From Clostridiales bacterium (GTDB lineage Bacteria > Bacillota > Clostridia > Monoglobales > WRBX01), in contig JAISIR010000018.1 in NCBI GenBank assembly GCA_031261985.1, positions 55,343 to 119,342 on the forward strand: a stretch of 64,000 nucleotides of DNA, written 5' to 3'. The notes under the pieces are model-generated. The model worked only from the letters and a program-made list of their open reading frames with translations. It did not search any database and had not been told where the DNA came from. A program made the position numbers and the translations under genes. Of this stretch, positions 57,840 to 64,000 are shown piece by piece (within the stretch, counting starts at the first letter, position 1; the number at the start of each line of letters is the position of its first letter).

Positions 57840-58059
57840 AATATCCCCCCGTTTAATTTTTTGCAATAAATCACTGTAAAAAATAGTAAATTTTAGCACA
57901 TTTTACATTTTATTGTAACATTATATCACAACTAAAAATAAATTGCAAGGGGTAAAATATTACATTTGTGTTAAATTTTGATGTTTTTTGTGTAATATAC
58001 TAGACAAAAAAAATTTTTTGTGATATTATTACATTATATTGTTATGGGGGCAAATTATA

Positions 58060-60348
58060 ATGAACAAAAAAGAGATTATTTCTATCGCGCAAGACTATGC
58101 TATGGATTTTGGACATTCTTCAATTGGAACGCTTCATTTAATGTTATCTATTATGAGTAGTGGCAAAACTGGCAGCGTTTTTTTTGAAAAGCACAACATT
58201 ACTATCGAAAAGATTTTGCAAAAGGCGGATAGTTTAGTTGGGATAACCTCTGCCACTAAGCCTAGTTCGACGCCTATTCCTCTTACCCCGCGCGCTGAGC
58301 ATGCCTTTAATTATGCCGAAAAATTAGCGTCTAAAACTACTAATCCCGAGTCGGGCACGCATCATTTGTTACTTGCTATAATTTGCGACCCAAACGCGCT
58401 TGCTTCTATTATTTTAATTGAGTTAGGCGCAGATATTGAGCTTATTTGCGAAGATGTAGTTAATTTTGATAATGCTAATACTTCTACCGATACCTCTTTA
58501 ACCCCTATGCTTAATAAATACAGCCGTGACCTAACTAAAATGGCGCGCATGGGTAAGTTAGACCCTATTACAACTCGCGAGAACGAAGTTCAAGAGCTAG
58601 CCGAAACCTTATGCCGTCGAAGCAAGAATAACCCTTGCCTAGTTGGCGTTGCAGGGGTAGGTAAAACCGCGGTGGTAGAAGGGTTTGCGCAGGCGATTAT
58701 CGCTGGGAATATACCTGATGTTTTAAGCAATGCTCGCGTTTTAGAGTTAGATATGCCTGCGATTCTTGCTGGGACTAAATATCGTGGTGATTTTGAAGAA
58801 CGTATAAAGGGTGTTTTAATCGAGGCAAAGGCTGATAAAAACATCATTCTATTCATCGATGAAATTCATGCGTATTTAAACAGTTCGGACGAAACAACCA
58901 GCAAGGCAAGCGATATTTTAAAGCCTGCCATGGCGCGTGGCGAAATTAAACTTATAGGCGCCACAACAACTGATGAATACAAGAAATTCATCGAGAAGGA
59001 TAGTGCGCTTAGTCGTCGATTCAATCAAATTACAATAGCCGAGCCTTCTATTCCTCAAACTATCGAAATTTTAAAAGGTGTCGCGCCTAAATATTCTCTA
59101 CATTACAGGATTGACCTAAGTGGTGAGGTTATAGAGCAGATTGTACACATGGCAGATAAATATATCCCAATGGGCGTTATGCCCGATAAAGCCTTGGATT
59201 TGCTTGATAATATTTGCAATTCTAAAGCTATTGATGGGCAGGATAACGACAGGATTTCGACTAAAATACTTAATTTGCGCACCGAAGCTGAGAATTGCAT
59301 CTTAAACGGTAACTTTAGCATGGCTCGAGAGATTAGCAAAAAAATCGCTATACTCGAGATGAATTCTACTTTGCCGAAAATCCAAGCTATTACCAAGGAT
59401 GATGTCATTAATTATGTCCGTCGTAAGACGAGTGTTCAAACCGATAGCATCTTAAATATAGAGTTCGAGTTGAACGATAAAGTGTTTGGTCAGCCCGAGG
59501 CTATTGCTACGATTTCTCAGACTTTACGTCGTGCGTACGCTGGGTTAAAAACGCCTAACTCTCCGCTTGCTAGTTTTATGTTCGTCGGTGAAAAAGGCAG
59601 CGGCAAGCAGCTTTTGGCGCAAAACATATCTAATATTTTGTTCCCTCACGATAGCGGGCTTGTAGTTATAAATTGCAGCGAATTTAGCGAGGAAAGCTCT
59701 GTTTCTAAGCTTATTGGCACCGCTCCCGGATATGTTGGATACAACGACAATAATAATCTGTTCGATAAAATTAAGCGTAACCCACGTTGCGTGCTATTTA
59801 TACAAGATGTTGACGTGGCTTGCAAAAGTGTCCAAAATTTATTTGCGCAAATTTTAAATAATGGTGTTTTTGAGCAGCCAAATGGTATTAAAATTGATTT
59901 TAGGAAGACAATAATTATTATGACAGCTAATGTTCCAGAGCGAAACAATCTAGGCTTCGGCGGCTTTAATAGCGATAGCAATTCTTATCCTCAACCGCAA
60001 AATAACGCGCTTAAGCCTATGTTTAGCGATGAGTTTTTAGATGCGTTTGATAATATAATCAATTTTTCACCTTTGCAGGGCGATGCGCTAACGTCCATTG
60101 CGCTTGACAAACTTAATACACTTAGGAATCAACTTTTGCAGAATTCTGATATTGAGTTTAATTTTACACCAGAAGTTGCTGAGCGCGTGGCTGAAATGGC
60201 GAAAAATCCTAAGGAAATTGACAAAGTCATCTGTGACAACCTAACTAATATGTTGGCGGATAAAATTTTATCGAAGGAATATTTGCCAGGAGATTGTGTA
60301 TTTATAGATAATAGTATATTTGATAATGAAATAGAGCAGGATGCGTAG
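58060..60348 (+). CDS. ClpC/ClpA-like AAA+ unfoldase with degenerate D2 ATPase
   Basis: D1 GVAGVGKTAVVE / ILFIDEIHA / LSRRFNQI intact; D2 GEKGSGKQ / VLFIQDVDVA / SDEFLDAFDN degenerate. Confidence 0.8.
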   Translation: MNKKEIISIAQDYAMDFGHSSIGTLHLMLSIMSSGKTGSVFFEKHNITIEKILQKADSLVGITSATKPSSTPIPLTPRAEHAFNYAEKLASKTTNPESGTHHLLLAIICDPNALASIILIELGADIELICEDVVNFDNANTSTDTSLTPMLNKYSRDLTKMARMGKLDPITTRENEVQELAETLCRRSKNNPCLVGVAGVGKTAVVEGFAQAIIAGNIPDVLSNARVLELDMPAILAGTKYRGDFEERIKGVLIEAKADKNIILFIDEIHAYLNSSDETTSKASDILKPAMARGEIKLIGATTTDEYKKFIEKDSALSRRFNQITIAEPSIPQTIEILKGVAPKYSLHYRIDLSGEVIEQIVHMADKYIPMGVMPDKALDLLDNICNSKAIDGQDNDRISTKILNLRTEAENCILNGNFSMAREISKKIAILEMNSTLPKIQAITKDDVINYVRRKTSVQTDSILNIEFELNDKVFGQPEAIATISQTLRRAYAGLKTPNSPLASFMFVGEKGSGKQLLAQNISNILFPHDSGLVVINCSEFSEESSVSKLIGTAPGYVGYNDNNNLFDKIKRNPRCVLFIQDVDVACKSVQNLFAQILNNGVFEQPNGIKIDFRKTIIIMTANVPERNNLGFGGFNSDSNSYPQPQNNALKPMFSDEFLDAFDNIINFSPLQGDALTSIALDKLNTLRNQLLQNSDIEFNFTPEVAERVAEMAKNPKEIDKVICDNLTNMLADKILSKEYLPGDCVFIDNSIFDNEIEQDA

Positions 60349-60387: not shown

Positions 60388-60933
60388 ATGATTATTGCTA
60401 TAATAATTATTGCACTAATTTTACTTTTTGTTATTGGTATGTACAATGGTTTGGTTCAAACTAAAATGAGGGTAGAGAACGCTTTTGCGCAGATAGACAC
60501 TCAATTGCAACGCAGGTACGATTTGATTCCTAACCTTGTTGAAACAGTTAAGGGGTATATGGAGCATGAGCGTGAGACGTTATCGGCTGTAACCGAGGCG
60601 CGCGCAAGTGCCGAAAAGGCTGGAAGTGTTGCCGAGAAAGCAGAGGCTAACGATGCTTTAAGTGGCGCGCTTACACATTTGTTTGCTGTTTCAGAGAATT
60701 ATCCTAATTTAAAGGCTAACGAGAACTTTATGAGTTTGCAAACCGAGCTGACTAATACCGAGAATAAGATTTCGTTCTCTAGGCAATTTTATAACGATAG
60801 CGCAACCACTTATAACACAAAAATAATGGTATTCCCTACAAATATTATTGCTAACATGTTTAATTTTACTTCTGTTGAGTACTTTAAAATTTCGGCTCCA
60901 GAGGCTAAAGATGCGCCTAAGGTGCAATTTTAG
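60388..60933 (+). CDS. LemA family protein
   Basis: MYNGLVQTKMRVENAFAQIDTQLQRRYDLIPNLVETVKGYMEHE. Confidence 0.9.
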   Translation: MIIAIIIIALILLFVIGMYNGLVQTKMRVENAFAQIDTQLQRRYDLIPNLVETVKGYMEHERETLSAVTEARASAEKAGSVAEKAEANDALSGALTHLFAVSENYPNLKANENFMSLQTELTNTENKISFSRQFYNDSATTYNTKIMVFPTNIIANMFNFTSVEYFKISAPEAKDAPKVQF

Positions 60934-60981: not shown

Positions 60982-61881
60982 ATGTTCGAGGCAGTTCAAA
61001 AAAACAAACGAAGAACTTACTTTATTGCTACTTTATGCTTTGTATTTTTAGGCGTTGTTGTATATTTTATTGCTGAGTTTAGTGGATTGGGTAATATTGC
61101 AATTCCTATTGCTGTTTTAGTAGCAATTTGCAGCACTTTTTTCTCATACTTCTTTAGCGATAAAATAGTTTTAGCAAGTAGCCATGCAAAGCCTGCCGAT
61201 GAAGAAACCGAGAAATATCTTCATAATATAGTCGAAGGTTTGTGCGTTGCATCGGGTCTACCTAAACCTAGAATTTACGTAGTTGACGACCCTGCGCCTA
61301 ACGCTTTTGCTACGGGACGGAACCCTCAAAAAGCGGTTGTATGCGTTACCACTGGCTTGCTTCAACGCTTGGATTATTACCAGTTGGAGGGTGTTTTAGC
61401 GCATGAACTAGCGCACATTAAAAATTATGATATTCTACTTTCTACCGTTGTAACTGTTATGGTGGGCATAGTCATTATTCTAAGTGATATTTTTACTAGG
61501 TTTATGTTCTTTGGCGGTGGTCGAAGCCGACGAAGCAATGACGACAACGGTGGCGGGATTCAAATTATACTTTTTATTATCGGTCTTATTTTTATAATCC
61601 TTGCACCGTTATTTGGGCAATTGTTAAAGATGGCATTAAGCAGGAATCGCGAGTATTTAGCTGATAGCACAGCGATAGAATTCACTCGTAACCCAGAAGG
61701 TTTGGCAACCGCTTTAGAGAAAATCTCACAAGACCCGATGCCTGTGGAGCATGCTAATAAAGCCACAGCTAACATGTATATTTGTAATCCGCTTAGAAAC
61801 AAAAAGGGCGAGTCGGTTGATTTATTTTCTACGCATCCGCCTATAGATAAACGCATTGAAGCTATACGCAACATCAGATAG
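60982..61881 (+). CDS. htpX: M48 family metalloprotease HtpX
   Basis: LEGVLAHELAHIKNYDI; PNAFATGRNPQKAVV. Confidence 0.9.
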   Translation: MFEAVQKNKRRTYFIATLCFVFLGVVVYFIAEFSGLGNIAIPIAVLVAICSTFFSYFFSDKIVLASSHAKPADEETEKYLHNIVEGLCVASGLPKPRIYVVDDPAPNAFATGRNPQKAVVCVTTGLLQRLDYYQLEGVLAHELAHIKNYDILLSTVVTVMVGIVIILSDIFTRFMFFGGGRSRRSNDDNGGGIQIILFIIGLIFIILAPLFGQLLKMALSRNREYLADSTAIEFTRNPEGLATALEKISQDPMPVEHANKATANMYICNPLRNKKGESVDLFSTHPPIDKRIEAIRNIR

Positions 61882-61926: not shown

Positions 61927-64000
61927 ATGAACATATTAATGACTCTTCAGAGCTTGGATATTGGCGGTGCAGAGACACATGTTGTCGAGCTTTGCATAGA
62001 GCTGAAAAAGCGCGGGCATAACGTTGCGATTGCCTCGAATGGTGGGACGTATATCCAAACGCTTATGGCGCATAATATTCCGCATTTTCAAGTGCCGCTA
62101 CATAATAAAAACCCGCTTAATGTAATTAAATCTTACCGAATGATTAAAGATTTAATTCTACAAAACAACTACGATATTGTTCATGCACATGCGCGAATTC
62201 CTGCGTTTATTTGCGGTCTGCTTGCGCGCAAAAAAAAGTTTAACTTTAAGTTTATTACTTCTGCTCATTGGGTATTTAAGGTTACTCCGCTTTGGCGGCT
62301 GATAAGCAATTGGGGCGATAGAACAGTTGCAGTTTCTAATGATATTAAAAATTATTTGATGGATAATTATAATACTCCCGCGCGGCAAATTGATGTAACG
62401 ATAAATGGAATAGACACGGTGCGTTTTAACCCAAAGACCGATTACGAGATGACGGCGCGGCAATTTGCCCTTAAACCCAAAAATATTAAGATTGTTTATG
62501 TTAGCCGAATGGATAGCGACCGAAGCATGGTTGCCTTCCAACTTATCGATGCGGTTAGTAGTTTAAAAAAACCGAATATTCAATTGTTGATTGTAGGTGG
62601 CGGCGATGATTTATTAAAGCTTCAGGCGTATGCGCATAAAGCCAATTTACAATCGGGGCGCGATGATTTTATTGTAGTGGCAGGTGCGAGGACGGATATT
62701 GATAAATGTGTATCGTGTGGTGATATTTTTGTTGGCGTAAGCAGGGCTGCGTTAGAGGCGATGTCTGCTGGCAAACCGACAATTGTTGCAGGAAACGAAG
62801 GTTACATCGGGATTATCAGCGATGAAACTTTGCCAATTTCTATCCAAACTAATTTTTGTTGCCGCGGGTGTGCGGCTTCAACCGTTGAGAAATTGACGGA
62901 AGATTTGCAAAAACTAATTGCACTATCACCTGAAGAACGCAAAAAAATGGGGGAATTAAATAGGAAAATAATTTTAGATAAATATTCAGCAAAAGCAATG
63001 ACAGACGATTACGAGCGTGCATATGCCAAGCTTTATCAACCTAAAATGTTAATTTCTGGCTATTATGGGCATAAAAACGCTGGCGATGATTCTATTCTTA
63101 ATGCCATGCTTAAAACTTTAGACGATAATGGTTTAGGCGGCAACTTATGCGTGCTTTCGCATACTCCTTACGACACTCAAAAAGCCTATGGAGTTATGGC
63201 GATAAATAGGTTTAACCCGTGCAAAATTATCGCTAAGATGAAGAGTTACAACGGGCTTATAAGTGGTGGTGGAAGTATTTTGCAAGATGTGACCAGCACA
63301 AAATCGTTACTTTACTACCTTAAAATTATACAAATGGCAAAGCACTATGGCATGAAGGTTTTTGTGTATGCAAACGGGATAGGTCCTATCTATAATCCTA
63401 AAAATATCAAGAAAACGCTGCAAACTTTAGAGCATGTCGACAAGATTACTTTGCGTGAAGAGAACTCGCTTAACGAGTTAAGAGTAATGGGCATGGACAC
63501 TAAAAATGTTGTAGTGACTGCCGACCCTGTTTTTGTAACCGATATGCCAACGGATGATGAGATTGCTGAAATTATCAAGGATTGTGGTATGAAATACGCT
63601 TCGTTACCAGATAAAAAGTTGCCCTCTAAAGGGGCATCTGATGAGAGGCAGGCTGCTGAGGGGCTGGCTGATAAATCTTTGACTGATAAATCTAAAAACA
63701 ACTTGAACAAAAATGTTAAAACTATTGCGAAAAATGATGATAATGACAAAAATTTCTTCTTAATTAGCGTTAGGGATTGGAAGGACAATTGCCCACATTT
63801 TGAGACGGTGTTGGCAGATGTTATCGACCATATTGCTAATAAAAATAATTTAGTGCCTGTTTTTGCCACGATGCAGCCGCAAAAAGATAGGATTATAACT
63901 AAAAAAATCATGTCGCGGTTAGCATGTAAATCTATTTTGCTTCCACCAGAATATTCGGTTAAAGAAATCTTGGCGGTTATGTCTAAATGTCGATTAGTTA
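61927..64000 (+). CDS. Glycosyltransferase (family 4-like) fused to CsaB-like polysaccharide pyruvyl transferase; truncated by window end
   Basis: Open frame read by hand: MNILMTLQSLDIGGAETHVVELCIELKKRGHNVAIAS...; second part LISGYYGHKNAGDDSILNAML...LISGGGSILQDVTSTKSLLYYL. Confidence 0.8.
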   Translation, partial: MNILMTLQSLDIGGAETHVVELCIELKKRGHNVAIASNGGTYIQTLMAHNIPHFQVPLHNKNPLNVIKSYRMIKDLILQNNYDIVHAHARIPAFICGLLARKKKFNFKFITSAHWVFKVTPLWRLISNWGDRTVAVSNDIKNYLMDNYNTPARQIDVTINGIDTVRFNPKTDYEMTARQFALKPKNIKIVYVSRMDSDRSMVAFQLIDAVSSLKKPNIQLLIVGGGDDLLKLQAYAHKANLQSGRDDFIVVAGARTDIDKCVSCGDIFVGVSRAALEAMSAGKPTIVAGNEGYIGIISDETLPISIQTNFCCRGCAASTVEKLTEDLQKLIALSPEERKKMGELNRKIILDKYSAKAMTDDYERAYAKLYQPKMLISGYYGHKNAGDDSILNAMLKTLDDNGLGGNLCVLSHTPYDTQKAYGVMAINRFNPCKIIAKMKSYNGLISGGGSILQDVTSTKSLLYYLKIIQMAKHYGMKVFVYANGIGPIYNPKNIKKTLQTLEHVDKITLREENSLNELRVMGMDTKNVVVTADPVFVTDMPTDDEIAEIIKDCGMKYASLPDKKLPSKGASDERQAAEGLADKSLTDKSKNNLNKNVKTIAKNDDNDKNFFLISVRDWKDNCPHFETVLADVIDHIANKNNLVPVFATMQPQKDRIITKKIMSRLACKSILLPPEYSVKEILAVMSKCRLV

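Follow-up and report, generated by a model that had tools for sequence, protein, structure and literature searches.

Our study reports on a natural variant of the HSP100 unfoldase ClpC in which the ATPase of the second ring (D2) is almost certainly inactive, while the first ring (D1) and the loop that docks ClpP are retained. The gene lies in the window, by which we mean the whole 64,000-nucleotide stretch of Clostridiales DNA analysed here, as an ATG-started open reading frame encoding a ClpC-type protein with the domain order of two Clp_N repeats, D1, a short M-domain and D2 (Table 1). An earlier note had proposed an ATPase-dead D2 with a retained ClpP loop; alignment supports this well and makes the predicted inactivity more secure than was claimed, since sensor-2 and the linker, which the note had missed, are lost too. 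Its 'single-engine ClpC variant' appears the best reading of the sequence, and its 'regulatory variant' is a possible rival. As to function, we lean towards a ClpC unfoldase or chaperone driven by D1, in which D2 would serve as a passive ring and ClpP dock, arisen after the loss of McsB and CtsR.

Table 1. Positions within the window of the clpC-type gene, its motifs and adjoining features.
Feature	Position	Strand	Evidence
Promoter-like sigma-70 site, TAGACA-17-TATTAT with TG, ~30 nt upstream of the ATG	58001..58029	+	consensus scan, 10/12
ClpC-type HSP100 gene, predicted dead D2, 762 aa	58060..60348	+	ORF, translation, Pfam, PDB matches
Clp_N repeat 1; S. aureus E32 equivalent is Leu25 (58132-58134)	58087..58242	+	profile search, alignment
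Clp_N repeat 2; E106 equivalent is His101 (58360-58362)	58315..58446	+	profile search, alignment
D1 Walker A GVAGVGKT (residues 196-203), intact	58645..58668	+	alignment
D1 pore loop KYRG, intact	58777..58788	+	alignment
D1 Walker B IILFIDE (D267, E268), intact	58843..58863	+	alignment
D1 arginines R319-R320, intact	59014..59019	+	alignment
Shortened M-domain (helices 394-415 and 419-435); Phe419 is S. aureus F436	59239..59364	+	alignment, model
D2 Walker A GEKGSGKQ (510-517); Lys516 kept, Thr to Gln517	59587..59610	+	alignment
D2 pore loop GYVGY (Y558), intact	59728..59742	+	alignment
D2 Walker B VLFIQD; Asp to Gln582, Glu to Asp583	59791..59808	+	alignment
D2 sensor-1 Asn624, kept	59929..59931	+	residue table
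LGF ClpP-docking loop motif (L631-G632-F633), kept	59950..59958	+	alignment
D2 arginine-finger position, Arg to Ala662	60043..60045	+	alignment
4-residue deletion at 717/718, removing D2 sensor-2 (YGAR)	60208..60213	+	alignment
lemA, 39 nt 3' of the clpC-type gene	60388..60933	+	ORF; name by own reading
htpX membrane metalloprotease, 48 nt after lemA, HELAH present	60982..61881	+	ORF; own reading

Identity of the protein and residues of its two rings

The protein matches the Pfam families Clp_N, AAA and AAA_lid_9 (D1), and AAA_2 and ClpB_D2-small (D2), and its closest solved structures in the PDB are the ClpC proteins of S. aureus and B. subtilis. The two Clp_N repeats score weakly, at 31.4 and 20.4 bits (20.7 with the frame neighbours), and above the cut-off; the NCBIfam models matched, ClpB and ClpA among them, are all below theirs. 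In a tree that carries a long-branch warning from the tool, the window protein pairs with the ClpC of the other genome of its family (the sister ClpC; G001, L008) at 100/99 on a long branch of 3.97 changes per site, and ClpE is set apart at 100/100. Identity as ClpE was rejected on this topology and on the lack of an N-terminal CxxC zinc finger, and identity as ClpB on the NCBIfam score (532.6 bits against a cut-off of 1232.1), the short M-domain and the presence of the LGF loop. The earlier note had proposed looking for a canonical ClpC in the same genome; no second ClpC was found there, and an extra paralog beside a canonical ClpC was rejected because the window gene encodes the sole Clp_N protein. 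As the other class-I HSP100 of the genome is a canonical ClpE, the window protein is this genome's own ClpC ortholog in modified form rather than an additional copy. Its M-domain, about 10 residues shorter in the alignment, keeps the aromatic residue at the F436 position. A G-rich stretch lies directly 5' of the ATG, and the sigma-70-like match upstream is by itself no evidence of function.

The catalytic set of D1 (K202, T203, D267, E268, R319 and R320) is intact, as is the pore-loop residue Y241, in agreement with the claim that Walker A, Walker B and the arginine region are kept in this ring. D1 has diverged in its Walker A, with GVAG in place of GEPG. The D1 pore-2 loop (58876-58908, residues 273-283) has lost the glycines of the canonical GAGAAEGAIDA, which may alter the grip of D1 on substrates.

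The D2 residues were read from an alignment of the window protein with 29 ClpC proteins from the same order and the ClpE of its own genome, and from a residue table of 43 HSP100 proteins (31 ClpC, the window protein included, and 12 ClpE). This comparison with ClpC and ClpE, which had been suggested, upheld the residue losses and corrected the register of Walker B. The Gln at the Ser/Thr position of Walker A is as described; for Walker B the loss stands, although not as a change of DE to DV, a reading one residue out of register, since VLFIQDVDVAC aligned to VILFDEIEKAH gives QD. The arginine is indeed gone, FLNRID having become FLDAFD with A662 at the finger position, and the WTGIPV motif of the D1-D2 linker is absent. 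The LGF motif falls where the note had placed the ClpP-docking loop, in the same alignment columns as the LGF of other ClpC. K-T, D-E and R occupy the D2 catalytic positions in every one of the 42 other proteins (30 ClpC and 12 ClpE), so chance is ruled out for the D2 losses, and the window protein is the only one of the 43 with a D2 that reads as dead; D2 is intact in the sister ClpC, which is 42% identical. In AAA+ proteins, losing the Mg2+ ligands, the water-activating residue, the finger and sensor-2 should exclude ATP hydrolysis. As the window protein has lost all of these, and with the finger its trans-activation, D2 should be unable to hydrolyse ATP, and it is doubtful that this ring would bind nucleotide.

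Constraint on D2

Among columns invariant in the order, the window protein keeps 75 of 103 in D1 (sister, 76), 56 of 129 in the large part of D2 (sister, 80) and 8 of 23 in the small part (sister, 20). As its retention in D1 is like that of the sister and its retention in D2 far below, it is D2 specifically that has changed, and this postdates the split from a sister with an intact D2. D2 contains no stop codons; neutral drift from the sister D2 to 38-63% identity averages 6 to 11, and none of 200 simulated runs was stop-free. Codon identity to the sister in the large part of D2, a figure that includes evolution on the sister branch, is 70% at position 2 and 25% at position 3. A plain pseudogene is disfavoured by both observations: D2 is not in neutral decay, and its frame is held open under constraint. 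An AlphaFold2 model built with 32 sequences gives the D2 core pLDDT values mostly of 80-90, and the best Foldseek matches to it are ClpC structures, including ClpC-ClpP and MecA/ClpC/ClpP complexes; D2 is thus predicted to be maintained as a fold.

McsB, CtsR and the genomic setting

The usual clpC context in this order, with McsB and CtsR assignments backed by family search, reads as ctsR-mcsA-mcsB-clpC (G002, G004, G016, G023 and G033; mcsA-mcsB with clpC in G003). This operon is absent at the window gene; in both genomes of the window's family clpC sits elsewhere, and the family search gave no match to McsB or CtsR in either (G000, the window genome, and G001). In S. aureus ClpC the pair of phosphoarginine sites is formed by E32 and E106, and the protein becomes active when Ala replaces both; activated ClpC is reported to be toxic (PMC12583610). 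The equivalent residues are L and H in the window protein and V and H in the sister, against E and E in every other ClpC of the order tabulated; by alignment, both phosphoarginine-binding glutamates are lost in both family members.

Among the 40 genomes of the order with a completeness of 80% or more, all 34 with McsB have Clp_N, as do 3 of the 6 without (exact probability computed by hand, 20/9880 or ~0.002, indicative only, as the genomes are related and incomplete). The three with neither a Clp_N nor an McsB match (G007, G011 and G009, genera g8 and g9) appear to have lost ClpC altogether, and in G007 and G011 ClpE is the only class-I HSP100 found. Their congener G020 keeps a fast-evolving ClpC (L032) with an intact D2. 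G006 has no McsB match, yet its ClpC (L064) has an intact D2 and both phosphoarginine glutamates; whether this is a draft gap or a genuine exception, McsB loss and a changed ClpC do not strictly go together.

The window genome is small, a draft assembly of 21 contigs. Its two class-I HSP100 proteins are the window protein and ClpE (G000:C9), the latter canonical, with its zinc finger and an intact ATP site in each ring; ClpX adjoins ClpP (C6), and no ClpB-like protein is found among the further AAA_2 matches. A second ClpP-family match (G000:C5:73341-73868, L049), in a 339-aa frame, we take to be TepA-like rather than a ClpP paralog. Downstream of clpC, on the same strand, the lemA-htpX pair that the note had placed there corresponds to two reading frames that we likewise take to be these genes; because the gaps are just 39 and 48 nt, clpC, lemA and htpX probably form one operon. 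The long ORF at the end of the window (61927-64000), which contains a low-complexity insert, resembles a glycosyltransferase fused to a polysaccharide pyruvyl transferase of the CsaB type; a comparable ORF of 730 aa lies near the clpE of G001 (L046:9957-12149).

Possible modes of action and relation to known systems

We infer an order of events in which the lineage would first have lost the CtsR/McsB regulatory system, then the phosphoarginine-binding glutamates of the N-domain, and last, only in this species as far as seen, catalysis in D2. The resulting ClpC is most likely still hexameric, with substrates threaded by the D1 motor alone through a D2 ring whose role would be structural and whose pore would be passive; the kept LGF loop may pass them to ClpP, and ClpE-ClpP and ClpX-ClpP would be the ones to carry out robust unfolding. 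Now that the N-domain lacks its repressing glutamates, a motor of reduced strength may counterbalance the toxicity of activated ClpC. The more specific version, a one-motor ClpCP protease in which D1 alone threads and a motorless D2 docks ClpP, arisen after control by arginine phosphorylation was lost, we advance tentatively. D2 is the principal motor of E. coli ClpA (PMC9663308), and that of B. subtilis ClpC is credited with ~85% of the ATPase (as cited in PMC10128030), so a ClpC working by D1 only is possibly too weak for stable proteins. In C. trachomatis ClpC, the D2 Walker B mutant E644A has ~70% of its ATPase left and unaltered chaperone activity, D1 being dominant (PMC10128030). By analogy, a D1-only machine is possible, perhaps a weak one. 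Against the D1-driven reading, nucleotide in D2 may be needed for hexamer assembly, and D1 itself has diverged, on a long branch and in one draft genome.

The protein could instead be a ClpP-independent chaperone or holdase, with D1 remodelling or holding clients and the LGF loop a remnant. The chlamydial D2 mutant still prevents aggregation (PMC10128030), the lack of any ClpB-type gene scored with AAA_2 leaves a chaperone niche open, and the gene adjoins lemA-htpX, which are membrane stress genes; the LGF motif has survived, however, although over half of the invariant columns of D2 are gone, and we consider this account unlikely. Less likely again is a regulatory subunit without threading of its own, which would cap ClpP unfed, sequester substrates, or mix into ClpE rings and slow them. 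A dead motor with a kept dock is the anatomy expected of a competitor, and Walker B-mutated HSP100 proteins trap substrates (PMC7966870), but D1 retains its full catalytic set, superfluous in a pure inhibitor, identity to ClpE is low at ~31-36%, and no partner is known. Early decay, with ClpC redundant after the McsB/CtsR loss and heading to its own loss with no current selected function, would fit the missing Clp_N of G007, G011 and G009 and the fast evolution of the window protein; it seems improbable given a far-diverged D2 that is stop-free and in frame, every D1 motif kept, and pore and LGF residues selectively retained. An artefact of assembly or sequencing, for which the single draft assembly, the only one of its genus in the comparison, leaves some room, is very improbable, as no usual error process yields several independent motif changes and an in-frame 4-residue deletion in an open frame.

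A search for close relatives by D2 patterns returned one distant match in GTDB 220 (32% identity) and none in viral contigs, and a class-wide sweep of AAA_2 scores for degenerate D2 found only canonical scores among the best matches listed, the low-scoring tail lying outside them. In the literature searched, which covered few subscription papers, no naturally occurring ClpC with a dead D2 came up. The variant is real and lineage-specific, so far in one species. How the rings of ClpA and ClpC share the work is unsettled, D2 leading in ClpA and B. subtilis ClpC and D1 in chlamydial ClpC, and a ClpC that in nature pairs a live D1 with a thoroughly dead D2 would put to an evolutionary test what the D1 motor manages alone. 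There is also a hint that what becomes of ClpC is bound up with McsB and CtsR: with the arginine kinase gone, the phosphoarginine sites, D2 catalysis or the whole of ClpC can go.

The window protein shares with the ClpC (MecB) of Bacillota its two Clp_N repeats, D1, short M-domain with the aromatic at F436, D2 fold, GYVG pore loop, LGF loop and grouping apart from ClpE (100/100). It differs in a D2 ATP site that reads as destroyed, in the lost phosphoarginine glutamates, and in a gene outside the ctsR-mcsA-mcsB operon of a genome with no McsB or CtsR match. The ClpE of its own genome is also a class-I HSP100 with a ClpP-type loop (YGF), but carries a zinc finger at its N-terminus and has lost neither ATP site. 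Pex1 is a two-ring AAA+ protein with a naturally degenerate D1 ring that pairs with Pex6; it has one dead ring, as the window protein appears to, whereas the latter has no known partner and the ring it has lost corresponds to the main motor of ClpA. Laboratory D2 Walker B mutants of ClpC, such as C. trachomatis E644A, likewise combine an active D1 with an inactive D2; these are single engineered changes, whereas the window protein is by nature devoid of its D2 finger, sensor-2, linker motif and Mg2+ ligands. Such losses beside a retained first ring, substrate pore and ClpP-docking loop suggest that it is nature's own single-motor form of a machine that ordinarily runs on two.
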